Shown one piece after another: positions 36,077-64,000 of a stretch of 64,000 bases of DNA. Position numbers and translations under genes: made by a program. This stretch comes from Frigoriflavimonas asaccharolytica (GTDB lineage Bacteria > Bacteroidota > Bacteroidia > Flavobacteriales > Weeksellaceae). Where the stretch lies: assembly GCF_013294015.1 (NCBI RefSeq), contig NZ_JABSNO010000003.1:142746-206745 (forward strand), written 5' to 3'. The stretch's first letter is position 1; each line of letters opens with the position of its first letter. A model generated the notes under the pieces. That model had not been told where the DNA came from. It searched no databases and saw only the letters and a list, made by a program, of their open reading frames with translations.

Positions 36077-36097
36077 AAGTAATACAAATTGCAATTT

Positions 36098-37237
36098 ATG
36101 AAAATCTCATTAAATAAAAGAAAATTGAAGGATGGAAGATTAAGTCTTTCTATTGAATATTACAAAGGATCGGAAATTAACGATGAAGGAAAGCGAAGAC
36201 ACCTTCGTAATTATGAAAATTTAGATTCTTATTTATTATCAGATCCAAAAACTGCTAAAGAAAAAAAGGAGAATAAAGAAACATTGGAGTTTGCGGAAAA
36301 TGTTCTCGCAATTAGAAAAGCAGAATTTGTCCAGGGAAAATTTGATATTAAAAATTCTACTAAATCCAAAAGGACATTTCTTAAATATTTTGAAGAGCTT
36401 ACTGAAGAAAAGCAGAAAAAAGATTCGTCTAATAATTATGGCAATTGGTATTCAACATTGCAACATCTAAAAAATGTTATTTCCAAGAATGTAACATTTG
36501 ACGATATTGACGAAATTTTTGTAAAAAAAGTTCGCACCTATTTCGAGAATGAAGCCATTACTAAAAGTAATCTATCGCTCTCCCAAAATTCTAAATATTC
36601 TTATTTCAATAAATTTAAAGCTTCGCTAAGAAGTGCATTTGATGATGGTTATTTATCAATAAACTACGCCACTAAAACAAAATCGTTTGACCAAGCAGAA
36701 AGTCAGCGAGAGTATTTGACATTTGATGAAATGCAATCTCTCGCAAAATCTGACTGTAAATATCCAGTTTTAAGAAATGCTTTTCTATTTTCTTGTCTTT
36801 CCGGCTTACGTTGGTCAGATATTAATAATTTATTGTGGTCTGAAGTACGAGAAGAAGGAGAAAATATTAAAATAAATTTTCGACAACAGAAGACTGATGG
36901 AGTAGAGTATCTCTATATTTCAAAGCAAGCTCGTGAATTATTGGGATTAAGAAAATCTCAAATGGATAGGGTGTTCACTGGTTTAAAATATGGAATGACT
37001 TACAATACCGAATTAGTGCGATGGTGCAATCGTGCCGGAGTTTCAAAACATATTACTTTTCATTCTGCCAGACACACTAATGCGGTTTTGCTTTTGGAAA
37101 ATGGTGCAGATATTTATACGGTTTCCAAGAGATTAGGACATCGTGAAATTAGAACTACAGCGATTTATGCTAAAATAGTGGACAAAAAAATGCAGGAAGC
37201 GGCGGAGATTATACCTGAATTAAATTTAACTTTTTAA
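36098..37237 (+). CDS. tyrosine recombinase/integrase of the mobile element
   Basis: 379 aa from ATG 36098 (an in-frame TTG lies 9 nt upstream). The N-terminal arm-binding domain opens MKISLNKRKLKDGRLSLSIEYY, followed by a core-binding SAM-like domain (residues 95-200). The catalytic domain shows Arg in SCLSGLRWSD, Lys in FRQQKTDG, His-x-x-Arg in FHSARHTNAV, His in RLGHREI and Tyr in TTAIYAKI. This is the family of Bacteroidota integrative elements. It lies 166 bp after the stop of mnmE, in keeping with integration at the mnmE 3' end. Confidence 0.92.
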   Translation: MKISLNKRKLKDGRLSLSIEYYKGSEINDEGKRRHLRNYENLDSYLLSDPKTAKEKKENKETLEFAENVLAIRKAEFVQGKFDIKNSTKSKRTFLKYFEELTEEKQKKDSSNNYGNWYSTLQHLKNVISKNVTFDDIDEIFVKKVRTYFENEAITKSNLSLSQNSKYSYFNKFKASLRSAFDDGYLSINYATKTKSFDQAESQREYLTFDEMQSLAKSDCKYPVLRNAFLFSCLSGLRWSDINNLLWSEVREEGENIKINFRQQKTDGVEYLYISKQARELLGLRKSQMDRVFTGLKYGMTYNTELVRWCNRAGVSKHITFHSARHTNAVLLLENGADIYTVSKRLGHREIRTTAIYAKIVDKKMQEAAEIIPELNLTF

Positions 37238-44319: not shown

Positions 44320-45042
44320 ATGAAAACAACTGATTACATTGCAAATACTATCAATCGCCTTCCTAAAGGTTATGTCTTCACGTATGATGATTTTCAAAAA
44401 GAGGTCAATAACAAAGAAGCCATTATCAAAGCATTGAATAGAATGGCGGTTTCTGGAAAGATTGAAAAAATTTCAAAGGGTAAATATTATAAACCAGAGA
44501 AAACTGTTTTCGGAAATTTAGAACCTTCACAAAGACAGATTGTGAAAGATTTACTTGAAGATAACGGAAAGGTTGTTGGTTACCTAACAGGATTGAGTAT
44601 TTATAACCAATTGGGATTTACAAGTCAAGTAAGCAATACCATTCAAATTGGTAAAAATGAAATCCGACCACAATTTGAGCGAGGAAGATATTCTATCTCT
44701 TTCGTAAAGCAGAAAAACACAATTAACAAAGAGAATATTCCTTCTTTACAATTGCTTGATGTTCTACGATTTATTACTAAAATTCCCGATTCAACTATTG
44801 AAAATACAATCAAAAGATTTATTGAACTTTTAAAGAATAAGGAGTCCAAAGAAATTTCTAATTTGCAGCGGCTCGCCTTGAAATACCAACCTTCTGTGCG
44901 GGCATTATTGGGTGCAATATTGGAGCAGGTTAATTTGGATGACATAGAGATATTAAAAAAGTCACTTAATCCAATTACAAAATATAATTTCAAAGGAGCG
45001 GATAAAGTTCTTACTACAAGTGAAAAATGGAATATTAGATGA
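44320..45042 (+). CDS. AbiEi-type antitoxin/autoregulator (DUF6088 family)
   Basis: 240 aa. The N-terminal winged helix KGYVFTYDDFQKEVNNKEAIIKALNRM with the wing GKIEKISKGKYYKPE is the DNA-binding domain of AbiEi-like proteins; the rest is an alpha/beta domain including GYLTGLSIYNQLGFTSQ. In type IV toxin-antitoxin systems AbiEi opposes the toxin and represses the operon. An inverted repeat at the promoter supports autoregulation here. The stop overlaps the toxin start by four bases (ATGA), giving coupled translation. Confidence 0.88.
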   Translation: MKTTDYIANTINRLPKGYVFTYDDFQKEVNNKEAIIKALNRMAVSGKIEKISKGKYYKPEKTVFGNLEPSQRQIVKDLLEDNGKVVGYLTGLSIYNQLGFTSQVSNTIQIGKNEIRPQFERGRYSISFVKQKNTINKENIPSLQLLDVLRFITKIPDSTIENTIKRFIELLKNKESKEISNLQRLALKYQPSVRALLGAILEQVNLDDIEILKKSLNPITKYNFKGADKVLTTSEKWNIR

Positions 45043-46010
45043 AGTTGCACGAAAATAAAACCCTTTTTAATCAAGCAGTTCGGTTCACTGCACAAGAATT
45101 AGGCATTCTTGATATTTATGTAGAGAAAGATTATTGGGTAACATTTGCTTTAAAAATAATTTTCAGCAGTGAAGTTGCTGAATACACCATATTTAAAGGT
45201 GGAACAGCCTTGTCAAAATGCTATGGAATTATAGAAAGGTTTTCTGAAGATATTGATTTGGTAGTCGTGAAATCTTCCGAAGATTCTGGAAATCAATTAA
45301 AAATAAAAACTAAAAAAATATCCCAAGTTTTAAATCCTTATTTCCCAGAAATTGAAATCGAAGGAATTACTCAAAAGATGGGAATGAATAGAAAAACAGC
45401 ACATTCTTATGCAAAAGAATTTACTGGAGAATACGGGCAGGTTCGAGATACAATTATCGTTGAAGCATCTTGGTTAGGTTATTTTGAACCTAATGAAGAA
45501 AAGGAAATTAAAACTTTAATAGCAGAAATGATGTTGAAAACTAACCAAACTCAATTGATCAGTGAATACGGTTTAGAACCATTTAAAGTTTCAGTCTTAA
45601 TGCCAACAAGAACATTGTGTGAGAAAATAATGAGTATCGTTCGATTCTCTTATTCAGAAGATGCAATTTCAGATTTAAAAAGCAAAGTGAGACATATTTA
45701 CGACATCCACCAATTATTAAACTTGCCTGAAATATTAGACTTTTTCAATTCCAAAAAATTTGATGAAATGCTTTTGAAAGTGGCGCAAGATGATATTGTG
45801 AGTTATAAAAGTAATAACGAATGGTTGAAAAATCATCCTAAAAATGCTTTGGTATTCGCTGATAGAATTAAAGTATGGAAGGAAATTGAGCCAGTTTATA
45901 ACCAAGATTTCGGAAAACTGGTTTACGGAGAATTGCCAGATTCGGAAAAAATGTTAGAAACACTCGAAAAAGTAAATGATAGATTACAAAATATTGTTTG
46001 GGATTTATAA
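45039..46010 (+). CDS. AbiEii/AbiGii-family nucleotidyltransferase toxin
   Basis: 323 aa. The nucleotidyltransferase signature is clear: YTIFKGGTALSKCYGII followed by ERFSEDIDLVV (the Gly-Gly...Asp-x-Asp pattern, residues 50-75). A later PTRTLCEKIMSIVRFS and KVRHIYDIHQLL are also typical. Family toxins add nucleotides to tRNA acceptor ends or otherwise block translation, causing growth arrest on phage infection. The four-base overlap with the antitoxin gene keeps the ratio fixed. It is followed after 26 bp by hsdM. Confidence 0.9.
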   Translation: MKLHENKTLFNQAVRFTAQELGILDIYVEKDYWVTFALKIIFSSEVAEYTIFKGGTALSKCYGIIERFSEDIDLVVVKSSEDSGNQLKIKTKKISQVLNPYFPEIEIEGITQKMGMNRKTAHSYAKEFTGEYGQVRDTIIVEASWLGYFEPNEEKEIKTLIAEMMLKTNQTQLISEYGLEPFKVSVLMPTRTLCEKIMSIVRFSYSEDAISDLKSKVRHIYDIHQLLNLPEILDFFNSKKFDEMLLKVAQDDIVSYKSNNEWLKNHPKNALVFADRIKVWKEIEPVYNQDFGKLVYGELPDSEKMLETLEKVNDRLQNIVWDL

Positions 46011-49447: not shown

Positions 49448-52400
49448 ATGGCAAATTACAACTTAAATAATCCCTACGATTTGGATACTATGCGTTTAAA
49501 CTTTGACGATTTTTCTGCTGAAGAATGGGATGATTATATTGTATTAGCCAAAGAAAAGAAAATAGAATATAAAAGTGTTGGTGTCTTGATGGATGCTCGT
49601 AAAAAAGCAGGGCTTTCAAAATATTTTAACGACAGATTGATAAAATGGGCGTTAAACATTGTCGATCAATTAGATTCTATGTCCGATGATGATGAAAAAA
49701 ATGAAAAAGCCATTGAACTTTTTGAGAGCGATACTTTCAATATGCCAGTTTCTCACGCCACTTTTCGTGTAGCATGGCATGATAACAAATGGAACGGAAG
49801 TATTTGCAATAATCCAGAAAACAATACTTTTTGTAATGGTTTTCATTCTTTACTTTCTGAACGTATAAGAAAAAGGAAGGATGAACACATGGCAGAAGAA
49901 ATTGCTAATAAAGGGAGAAAATTGAGCGAAATAGATTATTTGCCGCCTTGTTTTTGGTCAATTAATTTATTTGGAAGCGAAGCTGTAAAAGTGAAACATG
50001 ATAATCCTGCTGCATCGAATCTCGCATTGATAGAAGAAGAGTTGCCAAAAAATTCGATGTTGAGTTGGCCATTTTCTGTTTCATTTACCAGAACTAAAAA
50101 AGAACAAACAGAAAGTGGTGCATATCCAAAAAATTTGGAAGAAGTTAGAATCCCAAGATTCAATGCAAAACTACATGAAGGCAAGAGTATTGCATTTATG
50201 TATGCTAAATTTAGCAACCCAATTACAGAAGAAGAGCAGCAATATTTGGTGGTTGGTGCAGGAATTATAGACAGTAAGGAAAAAGCATCAGAGATTAAAC
50301 ATTTTGGTCCAGAAGAAGTAATAGAAGAGATAAAAAAAAGACCGCAAAGTAATTTTAAATACAGAAATTTCCCAAGTATGAATTGGGCAATGCGTTTCTC
50401 TTTTGATGATTATACTTCCATTAGAATGCCATACCATGAATACTTGGAAGAAGCAGATAAATTAGACGACGAAGCAAAAGATACTTTTCTTGATAACATA
50501 AAAGTTGCGATAACAGAACCAGAATTAGAATGGTGTTTTAAGTATGTTGCAATGGATATTGGTGATGATGAAGCCATCTATATATTGACAAAGATGCGAA
50601 AAGCATTATTGACTTGTAAAGATGATGGCGTTGTTGCGCGAGCAGAAATGCTGGAAAAAATAGAAAAAATTGATAATTTATTAGAATTTGCATGGTCTTC
50701 CAGATCATATTTTCCGGGATTTGCCAGTTTGTCAAGAGTACTGCTGAATAAAGAACAAGAACCAATATTTGAGTTAGATGGATTTTACAATGATTTTAAA
50801 GAAGATACTGAAGAACCAGATATTGAGTTAGAAAAAATAATTCTTGATGTTAATAGCAATGTAAACTTTAAAAGATATTCTAAATCAATTAATGAATTAA
50901 AAGATAGATTAGAACAACGACATATTAGTATTAAGCAATTCCTTACGTTGTCTATGCTTAACCTGAAACCGTTTCAATTCTCAAGGGTGCTTTCTGGAAA
51001 ATTAAAATTACCTGATAAATGGATTAGAAATTTTGATGACGATGTAAAAAGTTCAACAAAGTTGATTGATATTATTGCAAATCCTTATTTACTTTACGAA
51101 GATTATGAATATTGGCAAGATTCTCACGATGATGTATATGGTGAGGAATTAGATGCGCCAATTGATCTATTTAAGATTGATATTGCATTTTTTCCGCATA
51201 CACAATTTAAACAAAGAATTGAATTGCAGAGAACAATGAGTTTTAGCGATAAGCGAAGAATTAGAGCTGTTGTTTTAAGACATTTGAATACGCTTGAAAA
51301 TTCTGGAGATTGCTTTACAGATGCTAAAAACTTGCAAAATGCAATTAAATCTTATCCATTGTATTATGAATTAGGGAATGATTATCAATTTCCTGAAGAT
51401 CTATTTCATCCAGTAAATTCAGACTTATCTAATCATTTTCACGATGATTCTAAAAAAATAGTTTTGGTTGAAGCAAATGAGACCACCTATTTTTACTTGT
51501 CAAAAGTTTATAATGCTGAGAAAAACATAGAAGAGAAACTTAAGACCTTGCTTAGAGCAAATGATAATAAGGAACAATTTCCAAAGGTTGATGATTATAT
51601 TAAAAATTCAGTTGATAAGCTGAAGGAAATAATAGGAAATAGTTTTGAGGAAGAGTTATTCAAATCTGAGAGACAAAAATTATTTAAAAATGTATTTAAA
51701 AAGAGATTCTTTATCATTTCCGGTAGCGCAGGAAGTGGTAAATCTTATGAGATTTTAAAAATTATAAGCCATTTAGAAGAAAATGAAAATCAAAAATATT
51801 TGTTGCTTGCACCAACTGGAAAAGCAGCATTAAGATTAAACAATGATGCCGATCATAAAAACATCACTGCTTCTACTATTGACAAGTTTATAAGCGATGT
51901 CAAGAATAAAAAAATTAAAGTTTCAGAATTAAAAGACTACAAAAATGTAATTATCGATGAAACTTCAATGGTAGATTTATTAAAATTTGAAAAACTATTA
52001 AATATATTTAATTTTAAAGAACCGTCTTTCAAACGACTGATTTTAATAGGCGATCCTAATCAATTACCAGCAATTGGTTATGGTAGATTATTAGCAGATT
52101 GTATTAGTTATTTAAGGACTCAAAATAAATACCATGATAATTACATTGAATTAGAGTCAAATTGCAGGTCTGAATTAAAAGAAAATGAAGTTCTAAAATT
52201 AGCATCGGCTTTTAAACAAGGTGGTGAATTTGATCCTAATTTACTTGCAAAGTTCAAAAATAAAGAAGCCAATATTTCAGAAGGATTCCATGCAAATTAT
52301 TGGACAACTAAAGAAGAACTCTACAATCAAATTGAAAAAGAATTTAATAGACTTACAAGTGAAGAAAATTTAGAAGGTACAAATGCCGAAAAACTAAATT

Positions 52401-53437
52401 CAATACTTGGGTTAGATGAAAAAGGCGAGTTAGATATAAATAATTTTAATATTGAAAATTTTCAAATCCTTAGTCCATACAATGGACAATTTTCAGGAAC
52501 CAGTAAAATCAATGATTACATACAGAGAATATTTAAAAAAGATATTAAATTAGAATTCAGTAAAGGACAATACAAAAAAGCAGATAAATTAATCAGAACC
52601 CAAAATTATTACGATAAAAAAGAATTGGTGCTTTCAAATGGTACAATGGGTTTTATTAATAATAAAAAAAATGAATCATTTTATTATGAAAATAGTGATG
52701 GAGTGGCAAATATCTCATTCTACAATATTCGAGCAAATGAAAAAGAAGCATTTGAATTAGCTTATGCAATATCAATTCACAAATCTCAAGGTAGTGGTTT
52801 TAATCATTTGTTTTTAGTATTGCCTGCACGTTTTGGTCTGTTATCGAAAGAATTGGTTTATACCGCATTGACAAGAACAAAGAAGACAATTACCTTATTT
52901 CTTCAAACCAATGATGAAAAGATTAATACCGTTCTGGAAATCGCACAAAGTAGATCAAAATCTGGCTCGAGATGGACAAGTTTAATGTTAGATAAACCAT
53001 TTAGATTTTATAATTTAGAACCTGAACCCAATGTTTATGTAGAATCGAGAGTTGAACTATTAATCTATCATTTACTTTTGAAAAAAAGAGATGAATTAGG
53101 TATTGATAATTTTAATTTTTCTTACGAATGTAAACCTATAATTAATGGTAAAGAAGTAAATATAAAAACAGATTTTACTATTTACGCAGGAAATAAACAA
53201 TGGTATTGGGAGCATTTAGGTTTGCTCGGTCAAAGTAAATACGAATGGACTTGGCAAAATTTAAAAAAGAAAACATATCAAGCTGCAGGAATCTGGGATC
53301 AGATTTTAACAACAGATGAAACAAATGGCATTAATCCAAGCAAAATTGAGGAATTAATTGACTTGATTGTTTCAGATAATGTAACAACAGAAGATAAACA
53401 CAATCAATATTCTAATCATCATTATTACCTAAGATAA
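49448..53437 (+). CDS. large RecD-like SF1 helicase with nuclease-like C-terminus inserted in the type I locus
   Basis: 1329 aa. Residues 1-740 are an unrecognised region with a distinctive block near residues 105-170 (RVAWHDNKWNGSICNNP, NTFCNGFHSLLSERI, DYLPPCFWS). The helicase core follows: Walker A ISGSAGSGKSYE near 760, Walker B VIIDETSMVD near 835, GDPNQLPAIGYG near 868, and motifs V/VI IHKSQGSGFNHLFL and YTALTRTKKT near 1110-1140, as in RecD/UvrD-type enzymes. Near residue 1240, TDFTIYAGNKQWYWEHLG resembles the degenerate PD-(D/E)XK end domain of some helicases. It is not part of a standard type I system; it sits between hsdS (5 bp) and hsdR (1 bp), so it is cotranslated with them and probably works with or beside the restriction complex. 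Confidence 0.85.
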   Translation: MANYNLNNPYDLDTMRLNFDDFSAEEWDDYIVLAKEKKIEYKSVGVLMDARKKAGLSKYFNDRLIKWALNIVDQLDSMSDDDEKNEKAIELFESDTFNMPVSHATFRVAWHDNKWNGSICNNPENNTFCNGFHSLLSERIRKRKDEHMAEEIANKGRKLSEIDYLPPCFWSINLFGSEAVKVKHDNPAASNLALIEEELPKNSMLSWPFSVSFTRTKKEQTESGAYPKNLEEVRIPRFNAKLHEGKSIAFMYAKFSNPITEEEQQYLVVGAGIIDSKEKASEIKHFGPEEVIEEIKKRPQSNFKYRNFPSMNWAMRFSFDDYTSIRMPYHEYLEEADKLDDEAKDTFLDNIKVAITEPELEWCFKYVAMDIGDDEAIYILTKMRKALLTCKDDGVVARAEMLEKIEKIDNLLEFAWSSRSYFPGFASLSRVLLNKEQEPIFELDGFYNDFKEDTEEPDIELEKIILDVNSNVNFKRYSKSINELKDRLEQRHISIKQFLTLSMLNLKPFQFSRVLSGKLKLPDKWIRNFDDDVKSSTKLIDIIANPYLLYEDYEYWQDSHDDVYGEELDAPIDLFKIDIAFFPHTQFKQRIELQRTMSFSDKRRIRAVVLRHLNTLENSGDCFTDAKNLQNAIKSYPLYYELGNDYQFPEDLFHPVNSDLSNHFHDDSKKIVLVEANETTYFYLSKVYNAEKNIEEKLKTLLRANDNKEQFPKVDDYIKNSVDKLKEIIGNSFEEELFKSERQKLFKNVFKKRFFIISGSAGSGKSYEILKIISHLEENENQKYLLLAPTGKAALRLNNDADHKNITASTIDKFISDVKNKKIKVSELKDYKNVIIDETSMVDLLKFEKLLNIFNFKEPSFKRLILIGDPNQLPAIGYGRLLADCISYLRTQNKYHDNYIELESNCRSELKENEVLKLASAFKQGGEFDPNLLAKFKNKEANISEGFHANYWTTKEELYNQIEKEFNRLTSEENLEGTNAEKLNSILGLDEKGELDINNFNIENFQILSPYNGQFSGTSKINDYIQRIFKKDIKLEFSKGQYKKADKLIRTQNYYDKKELVLSNGTMGFINNKKNESFYYENSDGVANISFYNIRANEKEAFELAYAISIHKSQGSGFNHLFLVLPARFGLLSKELVYTALTRTKKTITLFLQTNDEKINTVLEIAQSRSKSGSRWTSLMLDKPFRFYNLEPEPNVYVESRVELLIYHLLLKKRDELGIDNFNFSYECKPIINGKEVNIKTDFTIYAGNKQWYWEHLGLLGQSKYEWTWQNLKKKTYQAAGIWDQILTTDETNGINPSKIEELIDLIVSDNVTTEDKHNQYSNHHYYLR

Positions 53438-56781: not shown

Positions 56782-57570
56782 ATGGTTTACCACTACACAA
56801 GTATTAAAACTCTTGGATTAATATTGAAGAATCGTAAGATAAGATTCACAAGATTTGATCTTTTAGATGATCAAACAGAAACCGAAGGTTTACCAGAACT
56901 ATTACAAAAAAGGTACTTTCTATCTTGTTGGGTTCATGAAGAAAGAGAAAATATACCTCAATGGGCAATGTATGCGAGTGAAGGAGTACGGATAGAGTTT
57001 CCAGCGAAGTGGTATAAAAAGCACCCGATTCCAATTGCGGGAACAGATAAAGTTATGTACAGTTTTCCTGTTCCGGACGATCAGTTTCTTAAAAATATGT
57101 TTTTAATTCTGCCATTTAAAGAATATTTTAACGTGGAGAAAGGTTATACTTTTGTTCCACCACTTGATGAGCAAGATGGTCTTTTAACAAAAGTTATTTA
57201 TTCTGAAGATTATGTAAAATTAAAGGAAAGTTATTGGAATAATTCTGAAGATGGTAATGAAATTAAAATGATTCACCAAGCAGCGCCAATTAAATTTAAA
57301 GATTCATACTGGAGTTTTCAGAATGAAATTAGATATTACATTCAAGCAGTAGTGAAATATGAAGATGTTTTTAAATTACCACAATTTTTAGATGTTGAAA
57401 TTTCGGACGAAGCTTTGAAAAATATTAAAGTAAAATTATATCCCAATTGTTCAGAAGAAAATAAAATATTGGTGGAAAGTTTATTGAAAAATTTCTTACC
57501 TGATATTGGTCTTTCTTCGTCAATTGAAAGAAGCAGATTAGATGGAAAATATAGACCAAAAAACACATAA
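56782..57570 (+). CDS. DUF2971 protein
   Basis: 262 aa. The start MVYHYTSIKTLGLILKNRKIRFTRFDLLDDQTE, followed by FLSCWVHEERENIPQWAMYASEGVRIEF, is the DUF2971 pattern: a Tyr-His-Tyr-Thr opening, a Leu-Asp-Asp motif, and a Ser-Cys-Trp segment before a Met-Tyr motif. The family resembles ADP-ribosyl-transferase-like or NAD-binding folds only weakly and has no known activity; it is frequent in mobile and defence regions. It follows hsdR by 49 bp and precedes the next gene by 7 bp. Confidence 0.82.
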   Translation: MVYHYTSIKTLGLILKNRKIRFTRFDLLDDQTETEGLPELLQKRYFLSCWVHEERENIPQWAMYASEGVRIEFPAKWYKKHPIPIAGTDKVMYSFPVPDDQFLKNMFLILPFKEYFNVEKGYTFVPPLDEQDGLLTKVIYSEDYVKLKESYWNNSEDGNEIKMIHQAAPIKFKDSYWSFQNEIRYYIQAVVKYEDVFKLPQFLDVEISDEALKNIKVKLYPNCSEENKILVESLLKNFLPDIGLSSSIERSRLDGKYRPKNT

Positions 57571-57577
57571 GTAAAAG

Positions 57578-59446
57578 ATGAAGGACGATATAGACATGCT
57601 TATTGAAGATTGTATTAGAAATACAAAAACACAATATGGAAGTACAAATTCTCTTATTACAAAAGGATTGATTGATTCCGGCGTAGTTTATAAAATTGTA
57701 AATAGCACACTGGAAATATTTGAAATTAATTTGAATTCAAAACTTTTCAATGAGCGGTTATTGATATATTCCGAACAAATTTTAAAGAAGAAACTTCCAA
57801 ATGATATTGATGATGCACATTTATTTGTAGATGAATTTTTTGAAAAGATTCAATTTTATAATGGAAATTATATATGGACAAGCGCAAGACAAGTTGCTAC
57901 CTGTTTACTTTCGTATATATTTCATTTACTTGATTCTCAGGGGCAAGATTTAAAAAAGTATTATAGTTCATTAGGCAAAGAAAAAAAAAGATCTACTTTC
58001 CATATTCATTTTGAACAAGCTTTTTTAGAATTTATTTCAAAAGCAGATTCGCTCGCAGATCTTAAAAAATATATTTTGAGCATTGCAGATGATCCGAACA
58101 GGCATCATGAAGCAGAATCTTTTGTTAGAAATTTACCCAAAGATAATGCTGAACTTTCAAAAAGTTTATTTTATGATGTTTTAAAAGAAGACTCTAAAAT
58201 AAAACATTTTTTTTTACCAAAATTATTATATGGCTTTATAGATGTAGAATTCGATTTTGCTTTTACTGAATCAATAAAGTTAATTTCAGAAGAACCGTCG
58301 ATTGCCTTATTTATATTTGGGCGTTTAAAATATAAATCTGAAAAAGAAATTATTGAAATTGATAAAGCTATAGGAACAATAACAGTTGCAGATAATATGA
58401 TTGGAGAGTATAGTTACTATCTCTGTAATTTAATAAGTAATTTTCATATTCCCAACAGTATAAAAACAAAATACTTCGAAATTTTAGAAAATTTAATAGA
58501 AACTTCTGAAGAAAATAATTTAAGTGCAGTTTTCCACAATATAAATTACAGCTTAAAAAACTGCGATGAAGAGAAATATAAGCTGCTCCACCTTTATTTA
58601 ACTAAAACAAAAAATCTACAAGTAATAAAAGATTTTTTTTACCAAATTGAAGATCCCAAATACCTATTTCATTTATTGAAGTTAATGCATTCAACTGGTG
58701 GATGGAGAGCGTCCTTAAACCTATTTGAAAATGCAATAGGGAATTTTTGGAATATAAATCAGAACCTAACACAACAATGTATATTCGATTTATTTACTAA
58801 TCGGAGGTATAGTTTACTGGGCGCTCAAGTAATAATGACGGGTTATTTGGAACCTATTCCAATTGATTTAACGAAGGCTACAGAAAATCAACAACTTAAT
58901 GCAATTGATGGGTTTTGTAAACATCCAATCTTTTTTGAAAGGCTTTTACCTTTACTTTTACCGTTGAGAAAATCAAGATCAAAACAAATAAAAAATCATC
59001 TTGTTGCTCAATTATCTATTTTAATAAAAGAAGCTTATGGTAAAGTTCTTTTTGAATTAATTACTTCTCAAGTTTCAAACACAAAAACAGACAAGCAATT
59101 TATTACTAGAATTGAAGCAGCTCTCGATGAATATTTAGATGATAAAAAAGAAAGAGAAGAAATCAATGAATTTAATCCCTATTTTAATGAAAAGGAACTG
59201 ATGAATCTATATTATGGGTTGCAAAATGAAAGTCAATCAAAAGCCAGAAAAGATGCTAATACAGGTTCTATTTTTAATGAATTAGCTACTACGAAAATAA
59301 TTGTGAGGGGAAATTCTTGGAAGTTTGGGGATAATGAAATTAGTCCATTAGGGAAAGTTAGTATCAGCGCTATGATAGATAAAAGAGCTTACAAAGATCC
59401 TGAAGCTTTTGAAAATTTACTAAATAATTTTGAGCATGGAGATTAG
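57578..59446 (+). CDS. unrecognised 622-aa helical protein of a two-gene unit
   Basis: 622 aa, no signal peptide. The sequence looks like a continuous alpha-helical array, for instance the stretches PSIALFIFGRLKYKSEKEI, YLTKTKNLQVIKDFFYQIED and FERLLPLLLPLRKSRSKQI. The last 60 residues change character (SIFNELATTKIIVRGNSWKF, then FGDNEISPLGKVSISAMIDK) and may be a small separate beta domain. No family was recognised. It overlaps the next gene (11 bases, by ATG 59436) and follows the DUF2971 gene by 7 bp, so the three form one unit. A sensor or scaffold role for the nuclease partner is only inference. Confidence 0.75.
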   Translation: MKDDIDMLIEDCIRNTKTQYGSTNSLITKGLIDSGVVYKIVNSTLEIFEINLNSKLFNERLLIYSEQILKKKLPNDIDDAHLFVDEFFEKIQFYNGNYIWTSARQVATCLLSYIFHLLDSQGQDLKKYYSSLGKEKKRSTFHIHFEQAFLEFISKADSLADLKKYILSIADDPNRHHEAESFVRNLPKDNAELSKSLFYDVLKEDSKIKHFFLPKLLYGFIDVEFDFAFTESIKLISEEPSIALFIFGRLKYKSEKEIIEIDKAIGTITVADNMIGEYSYYLCNLISNFHIPNSIKTKYFEILENLIETSEENNLSAVFHNINYSLKNCDEEKYKLLHLYLTKTKNLQVIKDFFYQIEDPKYLFHLLKLMHSTGGWRASLNLFENAIGNFWNINQNLTQQCIFDLFTNRRYSLLGAQVIMTGYLEPIPIDLTKATENQQLNAIDGFCKHPIFFERLLPLLLPLRKSRSKQIKNHLVAQLSILIKEAYGKVLFELITSQVSNTKTDKQFITRIEAALDEYLDDKKEREEINEFNPYFNEKELMNLYYGLQNESQSKARKDANTGSIFNELATTKIIVRGNSWKFGDNEISPLGKVSISAMIDKRAYKDPEAFENLLNNFEHGD

Positions 59447-61202
59447 AAATTTGATCGTTAAAGAATATTTGGAATCTTTGACAGAGAAAGATGAACTCAA
59501 TAAAATTTTTCCGATTCTGCTGGAAGCACAAGGATTTGAAATTCTAACTAAACCTACTGAAAATCTGGGTCTAAAGGAATATGGAAAAGACATTGTGGCT
59601 ATCGGAATTGATGCAGAAGACGGAATTAAAAAAAGGTTTTATTTTGAATTAAAAGGTGGTGCTGATAGAGACATTACTGAAAATAAATTTTATGGAAAAG
59701 ATGGGATACAAGACTCTCTTGCACAAGCAAGTTATAATCCTTTCCTGTCAGCATATCCCCAGTTTGAAAAACTTCCATTAAAAGTTGTTATAGTCCATAA
59801 TGGAACTATTGAAGGAAAGATTCAAAGTACATTAGAAGGAATGTTTATTAATCTTCAAAAATCACTAGAAAATACCTCATTTGAGAGGTGGGACATTTCT
59901 ATACTTACAAAACTATTTACTGAAAAACTTTTTAACGCTTATTTACTTGTTGATACTTATAATGTAAGACTATTTAATAAAACTTTAATCAACCTCGATG
60001 CTGATGAAAATGTTTCCAAAGAATTTCATGAAATATTAGAAAATCTGCTATCTAAATTTCAATTTAAAGGGGCGAAATTAAGACCAAATAGGCACAACCA
60101 AATGTTGTTTGAAACTTTGAAATTAATCTCATTTATAATATTCACAGAGTCAAATGGATATAATAATTTAAACATTGCAAAAAAGTATATTTTGTGTTTG
60201 TTAATCAAGATGTGGCATTGGATTCTTAAGAATAATTTAGAGAAGGATAAGTCTGTTATTAAATATTTTGATCAAGTATATCAATTTTATTTTGATGAAG
60301 TAATGCAATCCTACTTCGAAAAAACCTTACCGATTGCTTTGAAGAAAGATGGAATATATTATGAAAACGCTGGAATGTATGAAGAGATGGGGTATAATTT
60401 TAGAGCATTCGAATTTTTAGAGTTTTATACTATTTTCATCAATTATTGGCTGATAAATAATACTTCTAGAAATGACAGAGAAAATGCAAGATTAATGTTA
60501 GTTGATATTATAAATAATAATAAGGTTTGTATGAAACCCTTGATCGATTATCATTCAAATGTTATAATTTCCATCATTAATTTATTTTTAGAATTAGGCG
60601 ACATTGATAGTGCCAAATCATATATGAAAGCCGTTATTCATAAAATAAAAACGAGGAAAATAAACAATAATTTCTTACCTGATGCGAATAATAGTATGGA
60701 AAATGTCATCAAATTTAGAATGACAGGGACAAAACCAGTCTTCTATTCAGATTCAACATCACCATTACTTTCAATGCTTTTTATATATGTCGCAATTTTA
60801 GATTTAAAAGCGGAATATTATCAATTGAGAGAATTTGTTTCAGAATACAAAATTGATTTAGGTTATTTTGTACCTCATTTTGGGATTAATTCAACTTCCC
60901 ATCATTTGATAGAAGATCTGGAAAATGATTTTGAAGAGCAGTTATTTTCTAAATCTCATTTTAATGAAGGTTACCAGCGCGATCTTGAACTGCAGCAAAT
61001 TGATTATAATAATTTAAACGAAAGGAAAAAATTGAGTTTTTCTGCCTTTAAAGAAAAGATTTTATTAACTAAAGATGAATTTGAGTATGTTTATAGAACA
61101 ACTAATTCTGGATATCCATTGATGAAGGATTTCGCTCATATTTATTTTCACACACCTTATTTTCCTGATACTTGGAAAAATTATATTGAGCGTAATATGT
61201 AG
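59436..61202 (+). CDS. unrecognised protein with N-terminal PD-(D/E)XK nuclease-like domain
   Basis: 588 aa from ATG 59436 (an in-frame TTG lies 6 nt earlier). Residues 15-160 look like a restriction-endonuclease fold: a leading helix (DELNKIFPILLEAQGFEI), then the core EYGKDIVAIGID with the Asp, and RFYFELKGGADRDI with the Glu-x-Lys, followed by LPLKVVIVHNGTIEG, a typical third strand. The remaining 430 residues are alpha-helical, with TPR-like character in places (IISIINLFLELGDIDSAKSYMKAVIHKI). No known defence family was recalled with confidence. The tight overlap with the preceding gene suggests that the two products act as a complex. Confidence 0.75.
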   Translation: MEIRNLIVKEYLESLTEKDELNKIFPILLEAQGFEILTKPTENLGLKEYGKDIVAIGIDAEDGIKKRFYFELKGGADRDITENKFYGKDGIQDSLAQASYNPFLSAYPQFEKLPLKVVIVHNGTIEGKIQSTLEGMFINLQKSLENTSFERWDISILTKLFTEKLFNAYLLVDTYNVRLFNKTLINLDADENVSKEFHEILENLLSKFQFKGAKLRPNRHNQMLFETLKLISFIIFTESNGYNNLNIAKKYILCLLIKMWHWILKNNLEKDKSVIKYFDQVYQFYFDEVMQSYFEKTLPIALKKDGIYYENAGMYEEMGYNFRAFEFLEFYTIFINYWLINNTSRNDRENARLMLVDIINNNKVCMKPLIDYHSNVIISIINLFLELGDIDSAKSYMKAVIHKIKTRKINNNFLPDANNSMENVIKFRMTGTKPVFYSDSTSPLLSMLFIYVAILDLKAEYYQLREFVSEYKIDLGYFVPHFGINSTSHHLIEDLENDFEEQLFSKSHFNEGYQRDLELQQIDYNNLNERKKLSFSAFKEKILLTKDEFEYVYRTTNSGYPLMKDFAHIYFHTPYFPDTWKNYIERNM

Positions 61203-63709: not shown

Positions 63710-64000
63710 ATGGTATTTATTTCTTTAGCAAAAGCACAGAAACAATTGGTTCAAAATATTCGTGAACGGCGATTATTGATGGAGCTTACACAAGAAGGAT
63801 TGTCAGAAAGATCGGGAGTTCCATTATCTACATTGAGGAAATTTGAGCAGAAAGGTCTAATTTCTTTAGATTCTTTTTTAAAAATACTTTCTGTAGTAGG
63901 AGGTTTAGAGGAAATGATGAACGTTTTGAAACCAATAAAGCCCAATTTTAAATCAATTGATGATGTACTAAAAGTAGAAAATGAAATCACAAGAAAAAGA
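63710..64000 (+). CDS. HipB/XRE-family antitoxin-like regulator (partial, cut by window end)
   Basis: The open frame from ATG 63710 runs off the window after 97 codons. It reads LAKAQKQLVQNIRERRLLM, then ELTQEGLSERSGVPLSTLRKFE with QKGLISLDSFLKILSVVGG, a standard lambda-repressor-like HTH close to HipB. Such a gene is usually followed by hipA, a kinase toxin; that would lie outside the window. It is probably the first gene of another toxin-antitoxin pair, either on the same element or on the neighbouring chromosome. Confidence 0.8.
   Translation, partial: MVFISLAKAQKQLVQNIRERRLLMELTQEGLSERSGVPLSTLRKFEQKGLISLDSFLKILSVVGGLEEMMNVLKPIKPNFKSIDDVLKVENEITRKR

Follow-up and report, generated by a model that had tools for sequence, protein, structure and literature searches.

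The gene pair at 57578 to 61202 of a 64,000-nucleotide stretch of Frigoriflavimonas asaccharolytica DNA (the window) is, as judged from its protein sequences, a member of the Olokun defence system belonging to a Bacteroidota clade, with an anti-phage role assigned by family membership. The best explanation of the pair, and probably the right one, is that OloB is a nuclease effector with a complete E19, D54, E73-x-K75 layout and that OloA acts as its scaffold or sensor; the activity, the complex and the target are what we infer here. Olokun is an anti-phage defence system that received its name in Millman et al. 2022 (Cell Host Microbe), as cited in PMC10121019 (its reference 7), and its mechanism is given as unknown or not characterised in PMC12926258 and PMC12592470.

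Both genes lie on the forward strand. The oloA gene (57578..59446) encodes 622 amino acids and oloB (59436..61202) encodes 588 from the ATG at 59436, while the list of open reading frames also offers a TTG start at 59430, which leads to the same stop at 61202 and a protein of 590 aa; the OloB residue numbers E19, D54, E73 and K75 follow the 590-aa numbering. Given the ATG start, the genes overlap by 11 bases (59436..59446). This overlap of a 622-aa and a 588-aa gene had been described in a first-pass annotation of the DNA and is borne out by the open reading frames and the printed sequence, as are the motifs KDIVAIG and FELKGG that it had read in the second protein. OloA matched the PADLOC model PDLC03925 with residues 115-618 (E 2.7e-53, profile positions 60-589 of 596) and OloB matched PDLC03926 with residues 7-587 (E 4.8e-124, positions 2-555 of 556). 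The order oloA then oloB, adjacent and on the same strand, is shared with Olokun and kept across 45 loci, and the approximate protein lengths are shared as well. Since both proteins match named PADLOC models over most of their length, the pair is Olokun and no new system. The first-pass annotation had considered it possibly new, a proposal that it held refutable by a match to an already named defence system, and such a match, to Olokun, is what was found; the defence role that it had proposed is upheld through the same family membership. Its statement that the 622-aa protein belongs to no recognised family is true of Pfam and NCBIfam, where neither OloA nor OloB had a significant match, and fails for PADLOC, which recognises OloA. 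A phmmer search of OloB against PDB sequences gave no match.

Counting weak partial matches, OloB was found in 9 of 395 genomes of a phylum sample and in 11 of 395 of an order sample. When an alignment of five relatives, with the patterns YGKDI and one ending in YF, was used to scan GTDB genomes, 35 OloB loci were added, the nearest of which (75 % identical) came from Epilithonimonas lactis and an uncultured Chryseobacterium. No match was obtained when genome contigs were scanned with a single sequence. No OloB relative was found in IMG/VR viral contigs, and searching phage records with either the oloAB DNA or an OloB of the classical clade found none. An OloA-like gene was located directly upstream at all 45 OloB loci examined, some of which look like one genome reached twice (L048 and L026; L062 and L023). 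At 44 of them this gene matched the OloA profile, with a spacing of -52 to +8 bases, and the genes overlapped in 40 of 44 measured pairs, a number that may be overstated because some starts are the longest possible. The 45th locus, L067, carries a short upstream homologue that shares 27-29 % identity with the short OloA proteins of L068 and L069. The two-gene unit seen in the first reading is thus conserved, and the rare co-occurrence against which it was to be checked was not observed. Distances between OloA proteins and between OloB proteins correlated over 25 loci (r 0.92; none of 5000 permutations was as high), a value that includes shared ancestry and does not prove contact on its own.

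Bacteroidales MAGs and Klebsiella plasmids carry short forms of OloA, of about 300-326 aa (L067:9012-9992, L068:9049-10020, L069:9034-10011 and L078:3096-3998), with a full-length OloB still encoded directly downstream. In E. coli ET350, a gene for a CHAT-domain protein precedes a short-form oloAB by about 110 bases (L091:599-5579). At two further loci (L019:8631-14089 and L026:8233-13652) oloAB is directly flanked by genes on both sides; in L019 the family matched by both of these is that of the RlaP-type nucleotidyltransferases (PF10127), and the downstream flanking genes of the two loci share 82 % identity.

The oloAB locus is part of a defence island, carried on an element with an integrase gene. 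Genes for a tyrosine integrase (36089-37237), a primase-like protein and a DUF5712 protein all follow mnmE on this element, with the integrase and DUF5712 genes just behind mnmE. AbiEi/AbiEii (44320-46010) is also present in the window, and past it come, in this order, HsdM, HsdS, the PDC-S68 helicase, HsdR, a DUF2971-like gene, oloAB, a DUF2779 protein and HipB-HipA. The DUF2971-like gene (56782..57570, forward strand) is directly upstream of oloA and has a weak Pfam match below the cutoff (E 0.063). The context given in the first-pass annotation was confirmed, with type I restriction-modification (HsdM, HsdS, HsdR), this weak DUF2971-like gene, the DUF2779 protein downstream and the integrase. 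At a threshold of 1e-10, the 132 neighbours of oloAB matched 175 PADLOC models and 108 control genes from stretches of related genomes matched 18, these being counts of models and not of genes, as one methyltransferase can match many models. The PDC-S68 candidate of PADLOC (1741 bits) is a RecD-like helicase of 1329 aa encoded at 49448-53437, between hsdS and hsdR of the type I operon. The genes for the HipB-like regulator and the HipA kinase start just downstream of the DUF2779 gene, at 63710, and run past the end of the window (L029:9710-11232). Near 57409, 14 bases of the mnmE region recur, which was treated as chance. The DUF2971 gene was rejected as a general third subunit, being found only in the window and in L040 among the loci searched.

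The structure of OloB was predicted with AlphaFold2 from 33 sequences (mean pLDDT 89.1, pTM 0.87). The model has an N-terminal alpha/beta domain with the order alpha-beta-beta-beta-alpha-beta, followed by a mostly helical remainder, and its residues 1-167 (59430..59930, forward strand) adopt the helix-sheet core fold of restriction-type nucleases. Using VIA-align, this domain was matched to the FokI cleavage domain (residues 391-559; Z 10.6 over 145 residues), to residues 2-166 of Avs4 (Z 9.1), to MspJI (Z 8.4) and to AspBHI (Z 7.6). Foldseek returned no match for OloB at E 0.001 or better, and its top-ranked matches for the full-length protein were to helical repeats only; the nuclease match emerged with VIA-align. 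Of the features of the PD-(D/E)XK superfamily, the alpha-beta core fold is thus found in the predicted model and its structural matches, and the D...(E/D)xK residues in the window's OloB are D54, E73 and K75. These data support the prediction that the N-terminus of OloB is a PD-(D/E)XK-type nuclease core, in line with the earlier reading of a restriction-type nuclease N-terminus and a helical remainder and with the structure prediction proposed to check it. The fold is shared with the nuclease domains of FokI, MspJI and AspBHI, but none of their recognition domains was recognised in OloB and sequence identity is low (9 %). Avs4 is a STAND ATPase, whereas no ATPase domain was recognised in OloA or OloB in a Pfam search.

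Lamassu was considered as well. Matches to LmuA, LmuB and LmuC occurred for two members. The pair in the window had no match to LmuA or LmuB in PADLOC at E 1 and lacks an LmuB-type partner. Distant OloB-like proteins of 490-498 aa (L020:9669-13662, L027:8957-12923 and L028:6072-10240) do have a C-terminal part that also matches LmuA, at the LmuA C-terminus. Each adjoins a large partner of 834-891 aa; that of L027 is HEAT-like, those of L020 and L028 are OloA-like, and these pairs possibly represent a system between Olokun and Lamassu.

For OloA, the AlphaFold2 model obtained from 28 sequences (pLDDT 85.8, pTM 0.70) is that of a HEAT-type solenoid, which agrees with the large helical partner noted before. 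The nearest shapes were PP2A-A, importin and other HEAT/ARM solenoids (Z 7-9). The structural matches of the helical part of OloB were not distinctive, and no functional analogy is drawn for OloA or for this part because such PDB matches do not exceed what is typical of helical repeats. Residues 562-594 of OloA were predicted with low confidence. The segment of residues 576-600 (VRGNSWK...EISPLG; 59303..59377, forward strand; pLDDT ~40) ties for the most conserved 25-aa block of the protein, with an invariant G578. As it is conserved yet predicted with low confidence, it fits a candidate partner-binding segment that would become ordered upon binding.

The putative active site of OloB is built from residues that differ in their conservation. 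E19 (codon 59484..59486), an acidic residue that opens the helix preceding the sheet, with a presumed active-site role, D54 of GKDI (59589..59591), the candidate catalytic Asp, and K75 of FELK (59652..59654), the candidate catalytic Lys, are each present in 47 of 47 OloB sequences. E73, the Glu of E-x-K in FELK (59646..59648; all four codons are on the forward strand), is Glu in 34 of 35 members of the Bacteroidota clade and in none of the 12 others, where Ala, Val, Thr, Ser or Ile is found. Because the GTDB scan used YGKDI, D54 was selected for in part of the window's clade; E19, E73 and K75 were not selected for by the scan patterns, and the second clade came from profile searches or tblastn. 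Of the 12 others, some are encoded in genomes of the window's own phylum and the rest on plasmids of cyanobacteria, alphaproteobacteria and gammaproteobacteria; one of the 12, L021, has a long branch and an unsure placement. The branch dividing the two sets has an SH-aLRT of 99, and the E73 label needs two changes on the tree. The OloB of E. coli (L090, a prophage-linked locus) has Ser at this position, in contrast to the OloB of the window in its separate clade. As E73 is confined to the window's clade, the Glu of E-x-K is a trait of a branch and not of all Olokun, and its lack in the classical clade means that the canonical ExK is not required by the OloB family. No report of this split was found.

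Loss of the ExK Glu in a restriction-endonuclease fold can accompany loss of catalysis. It is conceivable, if rather unlikely, that the OloB domain binds nucleic acid without cutting and that the OloA-OloB complex blocks phage by binding or sequestering DNA, since the Glu is replaced in every classical-clade OloB aligned, including that of E. coli; however, the invariance of E19, D54 and K75 throughout, classical clade included, is hard to explain without catalysis, and the clade of the window retains the full motif. A further proposal, which we put forward tentatively and regard as somewhat doubtful, is that two catalytic forms of Olokun exist: one, in Bacteroidota, whose D-ExK is complete, and another that is widespread (E. 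coli, Klebsiella, Rhizobium, cyanobacteria) and has the Glu replaced, in which E19 would supply the second acid or catalysis would be altered.

The extent of the system can be questioned too. Only 7 bases separate oloAB from the gene before it and 18 bases from the gene after it, spacings that would suit a larger operon with the DUF2971 gene and the DUF2779 protein as functional parts, and a DUF2971-like homologue (51 % identical) occupies the same place in one relative, L040, the only such case among the loci searched. We consider this improbable, as L038 and L039, the closest relatives, have Lamassu genes directly upstream instead (LmuB in L038), and no DUF2779 homologue was present at any other locus searched. 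An unrelated defence system that merely resembles Olokun would account for the missing Pfam and NCBIfam families and for the small identity to the E. coli proteins (about 20-22 % for OloB, PADLOC membership being by profile), but it is largely refuted and very hard to uphold given the long matches to both Olokun models, the equal gene order and the intermediate sequences that connect both OloB clades.

In the preferred explanation, a nuclease effector with its solenoid partner, OloA would most likely bind OloB as scaffold or sensor; upon infection, the OloA-OloB complex would release or position the nuclease, and the OloB nuclease domain, once released or positioned, would cut DNA. Predicted folds of both proteins, a set of invariant residues and the split in the ExK motif are hereby added to what is known of Olokun. 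The OloB fold, the OloA solenoid and the invariant E19, D54 and K75 provide specific residues for mutation, and an initial biochemical assay for nuclease activity is better made in the clade whose motif is intact. If there are indeed two forms of Olokun, these may differ in substrate or in cell outcome.
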